Of a DNA stretch of 64,000 nt, positions 57,315 to 64,000 are shown one piece after another. The notes under the pieces are model-generated. The model was not told where the DNA came from and ran no database searches. It worked only from the letters and a program-made list of their open reading frames with translations. The stretch's first letter is position 1, and each line of letters opens with the position of its first letter. Source of the DNA: Magnetococcales bacterium (GTDB lineage Bacteria; Pseudomonadota; Magnetococcia; Magnetococcales; Magnetaquicoccaceae); the NCBI GenBank assembly GCA_015231915.1, contig JADGAR010000011.1, positions 1 to 64,000 of the forward strand. Direction: 5' to 3'. Position numbers and translations under genes: made by a program.

Positions 57315-57741
57315 GGTTCTTTGCTTTGGCTGGGGTTGCTGGAAGCGTCTCTAATATTTAAATGATACCCATTCTTACTAAGCCTGTCAAGCGACATACA
57401 CTGCGGCGAAAAATTTTTCATGAGCATTATGACTCACTCACAACCATCAGACAGCTCCGACCCTGCGGAAAACGATTGACAAACTTGCTTGCATTCTTTA
57501 CGCTTGCGTCATTCGAAATCAGGAAAATGAACTCAACAAAGCGGTACGCCACCGTACATAACGGTGATCGTGTCTTGTTGCGATGCCAAACCTGTGGCGA
57601 TCAACGCCCTTGGACCCACGATCACAGCACCAATCAGGGAACATTTCTTGCAATATTTTCGGTGTCGTCCCTAGAATGGACAAGATCCGAGGCATGACGC
57701 GTCTGTCTGCCCCGACTCCGCCAACCGAGAGGATACACCCG
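57315..57741. other. 427-nt divergent intergenic region
   Basis: The region separates fbpC (minus) from the cyclase gene (plus) and is richer in A and T than its surroundings. It holds the Fur-like site, a TTGACA at 57476-57481 without a convincing -10, and a 6-bp hairpin CACCGT/ACGGTG at 57550-57566. A 111-codon open frame (57362-57697) shows no recognisable domain and starts inside the Fur-like site; I take it as non-coding. Confidence 0.5.
57361..57373. promoter_or_regulatory. Fur-box-like sequence upstream of fbpC
   Basis: AATGATACCCATT matches 11 of 13 positions of the core AATGATAATCATT of the Fur consensus. It sits in an AT-rich stretch 47 nt before the fbpC start, where iron repression of the fbpCAB operon would act. 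It was found by eye; no matrix score was computed. Confidence 0.5.
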
Positions 57742-60700
57742 GTGAAATGTAGCCATTGCCAACTGGAGAATCGTCAGGGGGTCCACTTCTGCACCCGCTG
57801 CGGGACTCCGCTGGTCGCCATCTGTCCCCTCTGCCGCGCACCGAGCGCTGCCGACGACCTCTATTGCGGCGAGTGCGGCGCCCGCCTGCCCTCCGGCGTC
57901 CGCCCGCCCGCCATGACCCCGGCTCCGTCCAGCCAGCTCCCCGCTGCAGTCAAACCCCAGATGGAGTCCGAACGCAAAAACGTCACGGTCCTCTTCGCCG
58001 ACATCTCCGGCTTCACCGCCATGAGCGAAAAAATGGATCCGGAAGAGGTCACCAATATCATGAACGGCTGCATGAAAATGCTCGCCGACATCGTACACCG
58101 CTACGAAGGGTACGTGGACAAGTTCATCGGCGACTGCATCATGGCCCTCTTCGGCGCCCCCGTCACCCACGAAAACGACCCGGAACTCGCCCTGCGCGCC
58201 GCCCTGGACATGCAAAAGGAAATGGAGGAGTACAACGCCAGCCTGCAAGGCCGCCTGGAAACCCCCCTGACCCTGCATACCGGCATCAACTCCGGCATGG
58301 TCATCGCCGGTGGCGTCGGCTCCGACAAAAAAATGGAATACACCGTGATGGGCGATACCGTCAATCTGGCCGCCCGCCTCGAATCCCTGGCCCGCAACGG
58401 CCAGACCTTCGTCTCCGGCTATACCTACAACCTCACCCGCAACCTGTTCGAATTCGTCCGCCACGAGCCGATCAAGGTCAAGGGCAAAAAGGATCCGGTG
58501 GCCGTCTACGAACTGGTCCGCGCCAAAAGCCGCGTCGAACGGGACAGCGACCTGGCCAGGGAGAGCATCCCCCTGGTGGGACGCAACCGGGAAATGGAAA
58601 CCCTGCGCGCCTGCCTGGACCGCCACACCACAGGCCAGGGACTGGTCGTTTTCCTCATCTCCCCGGCGGGCGTGGGCAAAAGCCGTATCCATCAGGAGAT
58701 CAAAAAACAATACCTCAAGGGCGACCGCATCCAGGTCCTGGAAGGCACCTGCCGCTCCTTCAGCCGGGAAACCAGCTACGCCGTCTTCATCGAACTCTTC
58801 CGCCAGCTCCTCAACATCGACTCGGAAGACCTGCACGAGGCCATGGCCGACAAACTCACCCAGAACCTGCCCCTGCTGCTGGGCCTCGATCCGGAAGAGA
58901 TCCACGCCGAGGAAACCCGCAAGGGACTGGTCTTCATCGGCGCTCTCCTCGGCCTGAAACTCGGCGCCGAATTCGACATCCCCCTGGAACGGATGAACTC
59001 CCAGGAGATCAAACTGGGCATCTTCCGCGCCTGCGGCTGGTTTTTCCACGCCTTGGCCGCCCGCAAGCCCCTGATCCTCTCCCTGGAGGATATCCATTAC
59101 GCCGACCCCACCTCCGTGGAACTGATCGCCTCGCTCCTGGAACGGGTCAAGCAGGCGCCGATTCTGCTGCTGCTGCTGATGCGGCCCTTCAGCGACCATC
59201 CCTCCAGCAAGCTCCCCCTGATCGCCGACAAGGAACTGGACGACCTGGCCACCGAGATCCACTTCAAGCACCTCTCCCCAGCCGAGTGCGACGAGTTGAC
59301 CCGCCAACTCCTGCGCTCGGACGATGTCCCGGAGCCGATCCTGCAACTGGTGCGCAGCCGCGCGGACGGCAACCCCATGTTCATCGAGGAGATCGTGCGC
59401 AACCTCCTGGACGAGGGCATCGTCGCCATCAACCCGGATGGCGCCCCCAGGGTGATCAAAAACCTCGATGAGGTCTCCATCCCCTCCTCGATCCAGGGGA
59501 TCTTCATCGCCCGCATCGACAAGCTCGCCACAGAGTACAAGGAGATCCTCCTCGCCGCCTCGGTGATCGGCCCGGTCTTCCGTCTGGCCCTGCTGCAACG
59601 CCTCTTTCCCGGCACCGAGCTGGAACCGAAACTCGCCCAACTGGGGGAGATGAACGTCATCTTCGAGTCCAAATCCTTCCCGGAGATCGAATACAGTTTC
59701 CGCAACATCCTGATCCAGGAGGCGATCTACTCGACGCTGCTGCTCAAGAAAAGACGGGAACTCCACGCTGCCGTGGCCGCAGAGATCGAGGATCTCTACG
59801 CCAACCGGCTGGAAGACCACCACGAGGTCCTGGCCCAGCACTACCTGCGCGCCGAGATCGCCCCCCAGGCCTATTTCCACCTGGTCAAGAGCGGCCTGAA
59901 GGCCAAGGAGACCCATGCCAACAGCGTGGCGGCCTCTGCCCTGGAAAGGGCTTTGGAACTGGGCAAGGGGCTGACCGACCCGCCGCTGCCCCTGGCAGAG
60001 ACCGCAGTCGCCCTTTCCGAGGTGCGGGAACTCGCCGGCGAATTCTCTGCCGCCATCGCCATCCGCCAATGGATCCTGACCGCCATGGAAGACCCCAAGG
60101 CGCGCATCGAGCATTTGCGCCGCATCGGTCGCCTGCACGAAAAGATGGACGACTACCCACAGGCAATGGCGGTCTACGAACAGGCGCACCAGGAACTCCA
60201 GGGCCAGCCCGACTCCATGGATCTGGGCATGCTGCTCATGAACGAAAGCTGGATCCTCAACCGCATGGGCCAGCGGGACGAGGCCGCCCTGCGCGCCCGC
60301 CGGGCATTGGCCATCTTCGAGGCACACAACGCCCAGGAACGGATCGCCATGGTCTGCAACAATCTGGGCGTCATCCTGGAACACCAGGGCGACCTGGAAC
60401 TGGCGCTGGCCTTCAACCGCAAGAGCCTGAAGATCTTCATGGAACTGGGCGACAAACGCCAGACCGCCAATCTCTACCTTTCCATGGGCTTCCTGCACGA
60501 GAAGAACGGCGCCCTGGAAGAGGCGTTGCAATACTTCGAACACTCCCACGAGATCATGACGCGCATCGAAAATCCCTTCGGGGCCGGCACCGCCCTGATG
60601 CGCATGGGGATCTGCCTGTCGCGCCTCAACCGCCTGGCCGAGGCCGAGAAGGCGTTGCGCGAGGCCCTCAAGCTGCACCGGCAACTCGGTCTCACCCGCA

Positions 60701-60996
60701 AAGTGGTCTCCAATCTCTGGACGCTCTGCGAGCTTCATCTGGCCATGGGCGCCGCCTCCAAGGCCCGCAATCAGTTGGAAGAGGCCAGACAGATCGCCGC
60801 CGGTCGCAACGACCTGCCGGATCTGGCCCAGTGTGCGCTGCTGGAGGCACGCGTCCAGGTCCAGGAGAAGCGTGACCCGGACACCGCGTACCAGGAGGCC
60901 ATCCGCCTGTTTTCCGCCATCGGTCGCCACGATGCCGCCGAAGCCGCAGGCAGGGAACGGGAACGCCACTCGCGACAAGGGACCACCCCGGCATGA
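57742..60996 (+). CDS. Zinc-ribbon, class III adenylate/guanylate cyclase, AAA ATPase and TPR protein
   Basis: The 1084-residue protein starts with a double zinc ribbon (C-x2-C pairs: C-S-H-C, C-T-R-C, C-P-L-C, C-G-E-C). A class III cyclase domain (about 75-250) has both metal aspartates (F-A-D-I-S-G-F-T and F-I-G-D-C-I-M) and N-L-A-A-R-L-E-S. An AAA-type ATPase follows (G-V-G-K-S near 310), then a long TPR region (about 730-1070). It resembles large multidomain cyclases whose ATPase and TPR parts sense protein partners. The GTG at 57742 is preferred because GAGAGGA precedes it and the zinc ribbon begins at once; ATGs at 57676 and 57694 are alternatives. Its stop overlaps the next gene. Confidence 0.85.
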   Translation: MKCSHCQLENRQGVHFCTRCGTPLVAICPLCRAPSAADDLYCGECGARLPSGVRPPAMTPAPSSQLPAAVKPQMESERKNVTVLFADISGFTAMSEKMDPEEVTNIMNGCMKMLADIVHRYEGYVDKFIGDCIMALFGAPVTHENDPELALRAALDMQKEMEEYNASLQGRLETPLTLHTGINSGMVIAGGVGSDKKMEYTVMGDTVNLAARLESLARNGQTFVSGYTYNLTRNLFEFVRHEPIKVKGKKDPVAVYELVRAKSRVERDSDLARESIPLVGRNREMETLRACLDRHTTGQGLVVFLISPAGVGKSRIHQEIKKQYLKGDRIQVLEGTCRSFSRETSYAVFIELFRQLLNIDSEDLHEAMADKLTQNLPLLLGLDPEEIHAEETRKGLVFIGALLGLKLGAEFDIPLERMNSQEIKLGIFRACGWFFHALAARKPLILSLEDIHYADPTSVELIASLLERVKQAPILLLLLMRPFSDHPSSKLPLIADKELDDLATEIHFKHLSPAECDELTRQLLRSDDVPEPILQLVRSRADGNPMFIEEIVRNLLDEGIVAINPDGAPRVIKNLDEVSIPSSIQGIFIARIDKLATEYKEILLAASVIGPVFRLALLQRLFPGTELEPKLAQLGEMNVIFESKSFPEIEYSFRNILIQEAIYSTLLLKKRRELHAAVAAEIEDLYANRLEDHHEVLAQHYLRAEIAPQAYFHLVKSGLKAKETHANSVAASALERALELGKGLTDPPLPLAETAVALSEVRELAGEFSAAIAIRQWILTAMEDPKARIEHLRRIGRLHEKMDDYPQAMAVYEQAHQELQGQPDSMDLGMLLMNESWILNRMGQRDEAALRARRALAIFEAHNAQERIAMVCNNLGVILEHQGDLELALAFNRKSLKIFMELGDKRQTANLYLSMGFLHEKNGALEEALQYFEHSHEIMTRIENPFGAGTALMRMGICLSRLNRLAEAEKALREALKLHRQLGLTRKVVSNLWTLCELHLAMGAASKARNQLEEARQIAAGRNDLPDLAQCALLEARVQVQEKRDPDTAYQEAIRLFSAIGRHDAAEAAGRERERHSRQGTTPA

Positions 60997-62225
60997 CGAC
61001 CCAACGCACCGCCCTGGTCGTGGACGACGATCCCGACCATGTCTCCATGATACGCTCCCTCCTGGAAAAGGCGGGCTACACGGTCACCGGAGAAACCGAC
61101 AGCCTCCTGGCCATGGAGCGGATCGAGGCATTGCGACCGGATTGTGTCCTGCTCGACATCATGATGCCCAATCTGGATGGGCTGCAACTGTGCCAAAAAA
61201 TCCGCGCCAACCCGGATTACGCCGCCATCAAGGTCGTCATTGTTTCGGCCAAGCCCTACGAGTTCGACCGCCAGCGCGCCATCCGCTTCGGCGCCGATGC
61301 CTATTTCATCAAACCCATTGAACCCAGACCCTTTCTCGCCAGGCTGGAAGAGGTCTTTCAGGACACGCTGCAGGTGCGTTTCTGGGGGGTGCGCGGCACC
61401 CTGCCGGTCCCCGGCCCCCATACGGTTCGCTACGGCGGCAACACCAACTGCGTCACCTTGCATCTCCCCAAAGGCCCGATGTTCGTTTTCGACGCGGGAT
61501 CCGGCATCAAGAATCTCTCCGACCACCTGCTGGCGGCAAAAAAATTTCCCATGGCGTGCAAAATCCTGATTTCCCATCCGCACTGGGATCACATCAACGG
61601 CCTGCCCTTTCTGGTTCCGCTCTACATCAAGGGCAACGAGTTCGAAATCTGCGGGGCCAACCAGAACGGCATCTCCACCCGGCAAATGATCTCCGACCAG
61701 ATGGACGGTGTTTATTTTCCAATCCGCATCAAGGAGTTCAGCGCCAGGGTCTACTTCCGGGACATCCAGGAGGAGCAGTGGGACGTGGGCCATGGCGCCC
61801 TGGTCTCCACCATGCTCCTCAACCATCCCGGCATCTGCTTAGGCTACCGCGTGGATTATGGGGGACGCCGCGTGGCCTATATCACCGACAACGAACTCCA
61901 CCCCCCGGAACACCCCCACCACAATCCGGCCTATCTGCGCAAGCTCGTCCGTTTCGTGGAGGAGGCCGACATGGTGATCATCGACACCACCTACACGGAC
62001 GAAGCCTACGTCCGCCATGCCGGCTGGGGACACTCCGCCCCCCGGCAGGTGGCGGAACTGGCCCATCAGGCGCGGGTCAAGACCCTGTGTCTGTTTCACC
62101 ACGACCCGGACCAGAAGGATGCCGACATCGATGCCAAGCTGGCGCAAACCCGCGCGCATCTGCACCGGCTCGGCGCCTCCTGCGACTGCGTCGCCCCGGC
62201 GGAAGGGTCGGTCATCACGTTGTAG
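60993..62225 (+). CDS. Response regulator with metallo-beta-lactamase-fold output domain
   Basis: The 410-residue protein joins a receiver (about 1-125; V-V-D-D-D, acceptor in L-L-D-I-M-M-P, Lys in I-K-P) to an MBL-fold hydrolase. The hydrolase carries F-W-G-V-R-G-T, Y-G-G-N-T-N-C, the metal motif H-P-H-W-D-H near residue 193, T-D-N and a final F-H-H-D. This MBL type is related to PhnP/RNase Z-like enzymes and class II cyclic-nucleotide phosphodiesterases. Encoded in an ATGA overlap with a cyclase, it may hydrolyse the cyclase product when phosphorylated. That role is inferred from neighbourhood and fold, not proved. Confidence 0.85.
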   Translation: MTTQRTALVVDDDPDHVSMIRSLLEKAGYTVTGETDSLLAMERIEALRPDCVLLDIMMPNLDGLQLCQKIRANPDYAAIKVVIVSAKPYEFDRQRAIRFGADAYFIKPIEPRPFLARLEEVFQDTLQVRFWGVRGTLPVPGPHTVRYGGNTNCVTLHLPKGPMFVFDAGSGIKNLSDHLLAAKKFPMACKILISHPHWDHINGLPFLVPLYIKGNEFEICGANQNGISTRQMISDQMDGVYFPIRIKEFSARVYFRDIQEEQWDVGHGALVSTMLLNHPGICLGYRVDYGGRRVAYITDNELHPPEHPHHNPAYLRKLVRFVEEADMVIIDTTYTDEAYVRHAGWGHSAPRQVAELAHQARVKTLCLFHHDPDQKDADIDAKLAQTRAHLHRLGASCDCVAPAEGSVITL

Positions 62226-62309: not shown

Positions 62310-64000
62310 TCATGAAGGGCCATCCGGCAGCAGCATCTCCCGCCTGCCCGCCCGGTATTGCTCCCACATGCGCCCATACAACCGCTCCAGGTTGCGCGTG
62401 AAACGCACGGTATCGAACAGGGGATGACGCTCCCGATCCTGCAGCAGATGCCTGCGGATGGCCTGCAACCGGTTCGGGTCGCGCGCCAGACGCAACGCCA
62501 GATCGAACCAGCCCTCCCAGTCGGTGGTCACCAATTCCGGCAGACCCACCGCATGCAGCAAACTGGCCCCGACCCTGGAGGCAAAGGTCTCCCCGATCCG
62601 GGTCACCAGCGGCACCCCCACCCACAAGGCATCGCTTCCCGTGGTATGCGAGGTGTACGGAAAGGTGTCCAGCGCCAGATCCGCCAATGCCAGACGGGCC
62701 AAATGATCGGCAATGTCCGGCAGCCTGGGTGCGAAAATCAACCGCTCGGGATCCACCTCCCGCAGCCCCGCCTCGCCGCGCAAACGGTCGACAGGCACGC
62801 TACCCTGGTCAGGCAGCCACAACCGGCTCTCCGGCACGGCCCGCAGCAATTGGCACCAGAGATCGAAACTCTCCGGGTTGAACTTGACGCCCTGGTTGAA
62901 ACTGCAAAACACCAATCCCTCTTCCGGCAGCCCCGCCATACTCCGCGTGGGGATGGCGGCGGTGCGTCGCTTGCGGTCATTGGGTTGATAACAGTGCGGA
63001 AGCAACGCCAGGGTCTCGCCGAAATGGCCGGCATGCTCCGGCGGCGTGACGATCGGATCCCCGATCAGATAATCCGCGAGCCGCGCATCCCCCAGTGTGC
63101 CGGGATAACCCAGCCACGTCACCTGTACCGGCGCCGGTCGCAAGGCGAGGATTCCAAGGCGGCTGCCCTTGGTGAACCCCTGCAGGTCCACCAGAATCTC
63201 CACCCCATCCTCGGCGATGCACCGCGCGGCCACGGGATCGGCCAGCCCATGCACCGGGCGGAAATGATCGCAGGCGGCCACGATGCGCGCCCGGAGTGTG
63301 GAGCCGTCGTCTGCGGTGTTGGAATAGGCAAAAATCTCGAACCGCTCCCGGTCGTGCCGTTCCAACACCTCCACCAGCAGACTGGCCACGGCGTGCTCCC
63401 GGAAATCACTGGAGAGATAGCCGATCCGCAACCGCCGGGCGGGTCGCGGTGCCACCACCGCCGGAGCCGCCATGAAGTTGTGCCGCGCACAATAGCGCGT
63501 GGCGGCGGTGCGCTGATCCAGGGGGGTGACCGGCAAAAACAGCAGCTTGAACGGACTGACCTCCCCCCGCCCCGCGCGCAACCCTTCCTGCAAGACGGGC
63601 AGCACCTCTGCCAGGGCCGGCCAGTCGCACGCATACATCAACGCATACGTCAGATCACTCAATGCCCCCTGAAAATCCGGTCGGATGGCCAATGCCCGGC
63701 GGTAGCAGGTCAGGGACTCTGCCAGGTCGCCCCGATCCCAACACAAATTCCCCAGATTGCGCCAGGCGCCGGCTTCCATGGGCGCGAGACGCACGGCCTC
63801 CCGGTAAAGCGCCTCGGCCTCGGTCACGCGGTCCTGTCCGGCCAGCATCACGCCCAGGTTGTTGAAGGCGCCCGCCATCCCGGGATCGATGCGCATGGCC
63901 TCGCGCCAGGCGGCTTCGGCTTCCGTGCCGCGCTGTTGCAAATTCAAGGAAACACCTAAATTATTAATAGCTTCGGCATATTCCGGCTGGAGGCGCAAGG
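62310..64000 (-). CDS. TPR and SPINDLY-type O-GlcNAc transferase-like protein (5' end outside window)
   Basis: At least 563 residues are visible and the frame runs to the window edge. The first 130 are TPR repeats (N-N-L-G-V, A-E-A-x-x-R-E-A). The rest matches the GT41 catalytic region of bacterial SPINDLY-like proteins: I-G-Y-L-S-S-D-F, Q-V-T-W-L-G-Y-P-G-T, F-N-Q-G-V-K-F-N-P and L-D-T-F-P-Y-T-S-H-T-T. Such enzymes glycosylate proteins, sometimes flagellins or surface proteins, in the cytoplasm. It converges with the receiver-MBL gene, leaving an 84-nt gap in which no clear terminator is seen. Confidence 0.85.
   Translation of the reverse strand, partial: LRLQPEYAEAINNLGVSLNLQQRGTEAEAAWREAMRIDPGMAGAFNNLGVMLAGQDRVTEAEALYREAVRLAPMEAGAWRNLGNLCWDRGDLAESLTCYRRALAIRPDFQGALSDLTYALMYACDWPALAEVLPVLQEGLRAGRGEVSPFKLLFLPVTPLDQRTAATRYCARHNFMAAPAVVAPRPARRLRIGYLSSDFREHAVASLLVEVLERHDRERFEIFAYSNTADDGSTLRARIVAACDHFRPVHGLADPVAARCIAEDGVEILVDLQGFTKGSRLGILALRPAPVQVTWLGYPGTLGDARLADYLIGDPIVTPPEHAGHFGETLALLPHCYQPNDRKRRTAAIPTRSMAGLPEEGLVFCSFNQGVKFNPESFDLWCQLLRAVPESRLWLPDQGSVPVDRLRGEAGLREVDPERLIFAPRLPDIADHLARLALADLALDTFPYTSHTTGSDALWVGVPLVTRIGETFASRVGASLLHAVGLPELVTTDWEGWFDLALRLARDPNRLQAIRRHLLQDRERHPLFDTVRFTRNLERLYGRMWEQYRAGRREMLLPDGPS

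Follow-up and report, generated by a model that had tools for sequence, protein, structure and literature searches.

A cyclase gene overlapping a receiver–metallo-β-lactamase gene forms a conserved pair in one genus of Magnetococcales and may support a cyclic nucleotide circuit

Introduction

Several described systems share parts of their make-up with the gene pair analysed here. The atypical class-II phosphodiesterases Rv1339, YhfI and CpdA (Cgl2508) are defined by the Pfam domain PF12706 together with the motif [T/S]HXHXDH (PMC9293780), and YhfI is a metallo-β-lactamase (MBL) enzyme reported to cleave cAMP and cGMP, its preferred substrates (PMC9117128). In Dictyostelium, RegA carries a receiver, and GbpA and GbpB are MBL phosphodiesterases with two cNMP-binding domains (PMC11988041). 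The receiver of RegA controls a cAMP phosphodiesterase through a phosphorelay whose kinases are encoded elsewhere, but this eukaryotic enzyme is a class I phosphodiesterase and not an MBL. We know of no pairing of RegA with a cyclase gene. RNase Z, another relative by fold, has a flexible exosite arm that binds tRNA and is located after the motif-3 region, ahead of the next strands. For proteins that join a receiver to an MBL domain, we found no characterised or assayed member in the open-access literature.

Here, we describe a cyclase gene (gene 1) followed by a receiver-MBL gene (gene 2) in a window of 64,000 nucleotides from contig C22 of a Magnetococcales genome (G000; 133 contigs, 4.02 Mb), to which Magnetococcales MAGs are the nearest named relatives. 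Gene 1 has the cyclase, AAA and TPR order and the class IIIb residues of soluble adenylyl cyclase-like and bacterial cyclase-STAND proteins, but it contains a single cyclase domain and begins with a double zinc ribbon. Gene 2 shares with YhfI, Rv1339 and CpdA the PF12706 fold, the motif and the absence of an RNase Z arm, and differs from them by its fused N-terminal receiver and by a Trp in place of the small or hydrophobic residue that usually fills the second X of the motif. With GbpA and GbpB it shares the MBL catalytic fold, with a receiver instead of the cNMP-binding domains. RNase Z and ELAC proteins are its nearest profile matches and have the same metal ligands and a conserved late His; unlike them, gene 2 lacks the exosite arm, has an added receiver and scores far below the family cut-off.

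Results

A preliminary description had proposed that a gene for a zinc-ribbon, cyclase, AAA and TPR protein overlaps the receiver-MBL gene by ATGA, and both open reading frames, their Pfam domains and the junction (CGGCATGACG) agree with this (Table 1). Its coordinates identified gene 1 correctly except for the start, which had been placed at 57742, one codon late. The longest frame is open from 57583 on the plus strand, and the GTG at 57739 is the likeliest start, since it coincides with the V-x-C-x-x-C position at which orthologues start.

Table 1. Features of the gene pair and of the MBL-cNMP fusions encoded elsewhere in the same genome
Feature	Position	Strand	Basis or remarks
Gene 1, zinc-ribbon / class III cyclase / AAA_16 / TPR protein	57739..60996	+	~1085 aa; GTG start assigned by comparison with orthologues
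Putative ribosome-binding site GAGAGGA	57724..57730	+	Predicted from sequence; 8 nt ahead of GTG 57739
Double zinc ribbon, four CxxC	57748..57879	+	PF12773
Class III cyclase domain (Guanylate_cyc)	57970..58509	+	PF00211, E 3e-33
AAA_16 (STAND-like) ATPase, Walker A PAGVGKS	58570..59169	+	PF13191, 1e-21
TPR array, MalT-like	60103..60834	+	PF13424, PF17874
ATGA stop/start overlap	60993..60996	+	Sequence; gene 1 TGA stop within gene 2 ATGA
Gene 2, receiver-MBL protein, 410 aa	60993..62225	+	ORF and Pfam; AlphaFold2 model
Receiver domain (Response_reg): D11/D12, phospho-acceptor D55, S85, K107	61014..61346	+	PF00072, 8e-26
MBL hydrolase domain (Lactamase_B_2)	61371..62222	+	PF12706, 3e-18
REC-MBL-cNMP, 887 aa, MBL motif HTHAHDDH	G000 C46:38300-40960; L197:1798-4461	-	
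MBL-cNMP fusion with periplasmic solute-binding domain	G000 C41; L198:1195-4488		
MBL-cNMP fusion ending in hemerythrin	G000 C79; L199:2733-5369		

Among solved structures, the cyclase domain is closest to the adenylate cyclases CyaB, its best PDB match (9e-37), and CyaC. Residues D104, K144, D148, T218, N225 and R229 (numbering from 57691) are invariant in 20 Magnetococcales orthologues; we take them to be the two metal-binding Asp, the adenine-specifying Lys and Thr, and the transition-state Asn and Arg. A Lys/Thr pair is the mark of class IIIb adenylate cyclases. Gene 1 has all six catalytic residues of this class, and judging from its sequence the product probably makes cyclic AMP. The Walker A Lys of the AAA_16 domain is retained in 20 orthologues, and the four CxxC in most orthologues that have a complete N-terminus.

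The AlphaFold2 model of the gene 2 product is confident (pLDDT 91.5, pTM 0.85). Its receiver has the complete response-regulator set of acidic pair, phospho-acceptor Asp, Ser/Thr and Lys; among 63 receiver-MBL sequences from several phyla, K107 is invariant and D11, D12 and D55 are conserved in at least 90%. The MBL site, consisting of SHPHWDH (H195, H197, D199, H200), H278, D299, H347 and H369, is invariant in the same 63 sequences. The cyclase, receiver and MBL sites all look intact, with nothing degenerate. Because we found no assay of any receiver-MBL, the MBL domain might be taken for a sensing or binding module instead of an enzyme, but the invariance of all metal ligands across phyla makes this highly improbable.

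Grouping of the MBL domain differed with the method, since the fold favours YhfI and the sequence profile favours RNase Z. When the model was searched with Foldseek, YhfI and its orthologue 1zkp came out on top (identity ~16-19%), followed closely by RNase Z and, lower in the ranking, by PhnP, whereas the profile search put RNase Z in first place and the 1zkp protein in fourth. We rejected an RNase Z identity on the missing arm, whose region covers 19 profile positions versus 57 residues in B. subtilis RNase Z, and on a score of 70.7 bits against the model TIGR02651, which has a cut-off of 292.95 bits. Typical class-II phosphodiesterases (PF02112, HXHLDH; the motif here is HPHWDH) and the anti-Pycsar protein Apyc1 (PF23023) gave no match at E 0.01. 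In contrast, both defining features of the atypical class-II enzymes are present, PF12706 at 3e-18 and the motif as SHPHWDH. A cyclic-nucleotide phosphodiesterase activity is thus plausible from the sequence and the model, because of the YhfI-like fold, the preference of YhfI for cAMP and cGMP, and the agreement with PF12706 and [T/S]HXHXDH. That some phosphodiesterases use this fold, as had been suggested, is borne out by YhfI, one of the best fold matches here, which is reported to cleave both nucleotides (PMC9117128) and so removes the objection that MBL homologues are confined to phosphonates, lactones or RNA.

Within the genus, the two genes are adjacent in all eight genomes that have both. 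The cyclase is present in ten genomes, and the receiver-MBL stands alongside it in eight of these; G006 has a truncated match in a genome that is 57% complete, and G008 has the cyclase without any receiver-MBL of this size. Neither gene was found in G001. The ATGA overlap occurs in six of the eight linked pairs (the source genome, G002, G005, G007, G009 and G010), with short gaps in its place in G003 and G004. Gene order is kept at 65-76% protein identity, which puts the pair beyond chance. A downstream LysR/SLT/RND setting is common to G000, G005, G009 and G010, while no LysR, SLT or RND gene lies near the pair in G002; the pair is thus found in at least two clearly different chromosomal settings and must have stayed together through a change of place. 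In the tree, all eight receiver-MBLs from linked pairs group in a single clade with support 100, indicating one origin of the linkage. The pair is a genuine conserved genus-level unit of single origin. The source genome also encodes an unlinked receiver-MBL paralogue with 55% identity on contig C93 and, on contig C89, a short MBL that lacks a receiver.

Receiver-MBL proteins are widespread, with at least 577 confirmed relatives in one genome scan. We sampled the neighbourhoods of receiver-MBL loci in several phyla, 80 in all, two of them from the genus of the pair; these two alone had the cyclase next door. None of the 78 loci outside the genus had this cyclase next door; one had a distant cyclase-like match 5 kb off on the opposite strand. 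In ten genomes of the order outside the genus, a cyclase orthologue was present without a receiver-MBL beside it, and among 30 order genomes outside both the genus and its sister the presence of the two families was not associated (Fisher p = 0.68). We therefore rejected a family-wide co-occurrence with cyclases (0/78 loci, p = 0.68); conserved co-occurrence holds within the genus (8/8 adjacent) and not beyond it. A gene for B12-dependent ribonucleotide reductase (nrdJ) lies upstream in the cluster at 20 of the 80 loci, and a RidA-family gene downstream at 20 of the 80. The usual context of the family does not point to cyclases. In Rhodospirillales-type loci (L008, L024, L039, L048 and others), the receiver-MBL often lies between the two. 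A class III cyclase is encoded somewhere in 47/47 of the non-Magnetococcales receiver-MBL genomes tested versus 106/152 comparison genomes, a difference that is only suggestive, because the two samples differ in lineage and the comparison is confounded.

These distributions bear on two other explanations of the pair. In the first, the receiver-MBL would be a phospho-controlled hydrolase of another phosphodiester, such as 2',3'-cyclic phosphates, RNA ends or a PhnP-like ribosyl cyclic phosphate, having nothing but regulation in common with the cyclase in this genus. We regard this as possible if doubtful: RNase Z is best by profile, PhnP also turns up in the fold search, the majority of receiver-MBLs lack a cyclase neighbour and the Rhodospirillales-type copies lie by nrdJ and a RidA-family gene, but the protein lacks the RNase Z arm, scores 70.7 versus 293 bits, has a YhfI-type fold and is conservedly coupled to a cyclase in its clade. 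In the second, a receiver-MBL duplicate would have landed behind the cyclase in the ancestor of the genus and have remained there as an expression hitch-hiker with no shared pathway. The single origin, the absence of the linkage outside the genus and the cyclase standing alone in G008 fit this account, which is nevertheless unlikely, as the pair is intact in different surroundings at 65-76% identity with the overlap retained and both active sites conserved.

As stated earlier for this locus, no histidine kinase adjoins the pair. Of the four HATPase_c matches on the window contig, none extends past 38.5 kb, which leaves more than 19 kb between them and the pair, and the receiver of gene 2 is therefore an orphan. 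By a rough motif scan, kinase motifs lie near very few of the 80 receiver-MBL loci and none is a conserved neighbour. At one locus (L009), an Hpt protein adjoins the receiver-MBL.

MBL domains are also joined to cNMP-binding domains in three proteins of the source genome (Table 1), in a layout resembling GbpA and GbpB and with a receiver, on contig C46, reminiscent of RegA. This family was found in 48/48 Magnetococcales genomes searched, with one to six copies each. The protein on contig C46 is predicted to be a phospho-regulated, cNMP-binding MBL protein. The MBL domain of these fusions has weak similarity to that of gene 2, and we therefore use them as context and not as proof of homology.

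Discussion

The best reading of the locus, to which we tentatively give close to an even chance, is a coupled operon of a class IIIb adenylate cyclase and a phospho-gated MBL cyclic-nucleotide phosphodiesterase. The two genes would form one operon, probably translationally coupled. Gene 1 would encode a cytosolic class IIIb adenylate cyclase, with the STAND-type ATPase/TPR module setting its output, and gene 2 a response regulator with an atypical class-II (YhfI-type) zinc MBL phosphodiesterase as its output domain. An unlinked histidine kinase would phosphorylate D55 and so alter hydrolysis of the cyclic nucleotide made by gene 1, most likely cAMP. Co-production would fix the ratio of cyclase to hydrolase, and two separate inputs would set the nucleotide level. 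We infer the cyclic nucleotide substrate, the gating by phosphorylation and the single nucleotide pool for both enzymes from features that are directly observed, namely the domains, the intact catalytic residues, the ATGA overlap, the conserved pairing and the similarity of fold.

For the coupled cyclase–phosphodiesterase operon, we count the intact sites, the conserved pair, the YhfI fold, the missing RNase Z arm, the MBL-cNMP fusions and the 47/47 genomes; against it, the ranking of RNase Z above YhfI by profile, the usual absence of a cyclase neighbour, the nrdJ cluster at 20 of the 80 loci, the lack of association with cyclases in the order and G008. The make-and-break circuit put forward in the preliminary description thus gains from the first three of these and loses from a co-occurrence largely absent outside the genus. 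Since the linkage is limited to the genus, such a circuit, if real, was recently assembled from older parts. With somewhat less confidence, the pair may be a bacterial counterpart of RegA on the MBL fold, that is, a cyclic-nucleotide phosphodiesterase switched by a histidine kinase and linked by translational coupling to an adenylate cyclase of its own, in an order whose searched genomes all carry MBL-cNMP fusions, REC-MBL-cNMP proteins among them. If true, a bacterial phosphorelay would gate the breakdown of a cyclic mononucleotide. The cyclase-locked clade provides the first concrete substrate hypothesis for the receiver-MBL family, together with a simple two-protein assay.

Two neighbouring regions complete the description of the locus. 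On the minus strand, window positions 62310-63998, continuing to C22:64611, encode a 766-aa TPR protein resembling SPINDLY/OGT glycosyltransferases; among the relatives inspected, none has a match to it alongside the pair. About 4.1-5.6 kb past the pair and outside the window, G000:C22:66366-67850 (minus strand) holds two genes with cNMP-binding domains. The larger of them keeps synteny with the pair in G009 and G010, but neither accompanies the pair in G005 or G002, and we therefore leave both out of the unit; it is possible that their products read the nucleotide.
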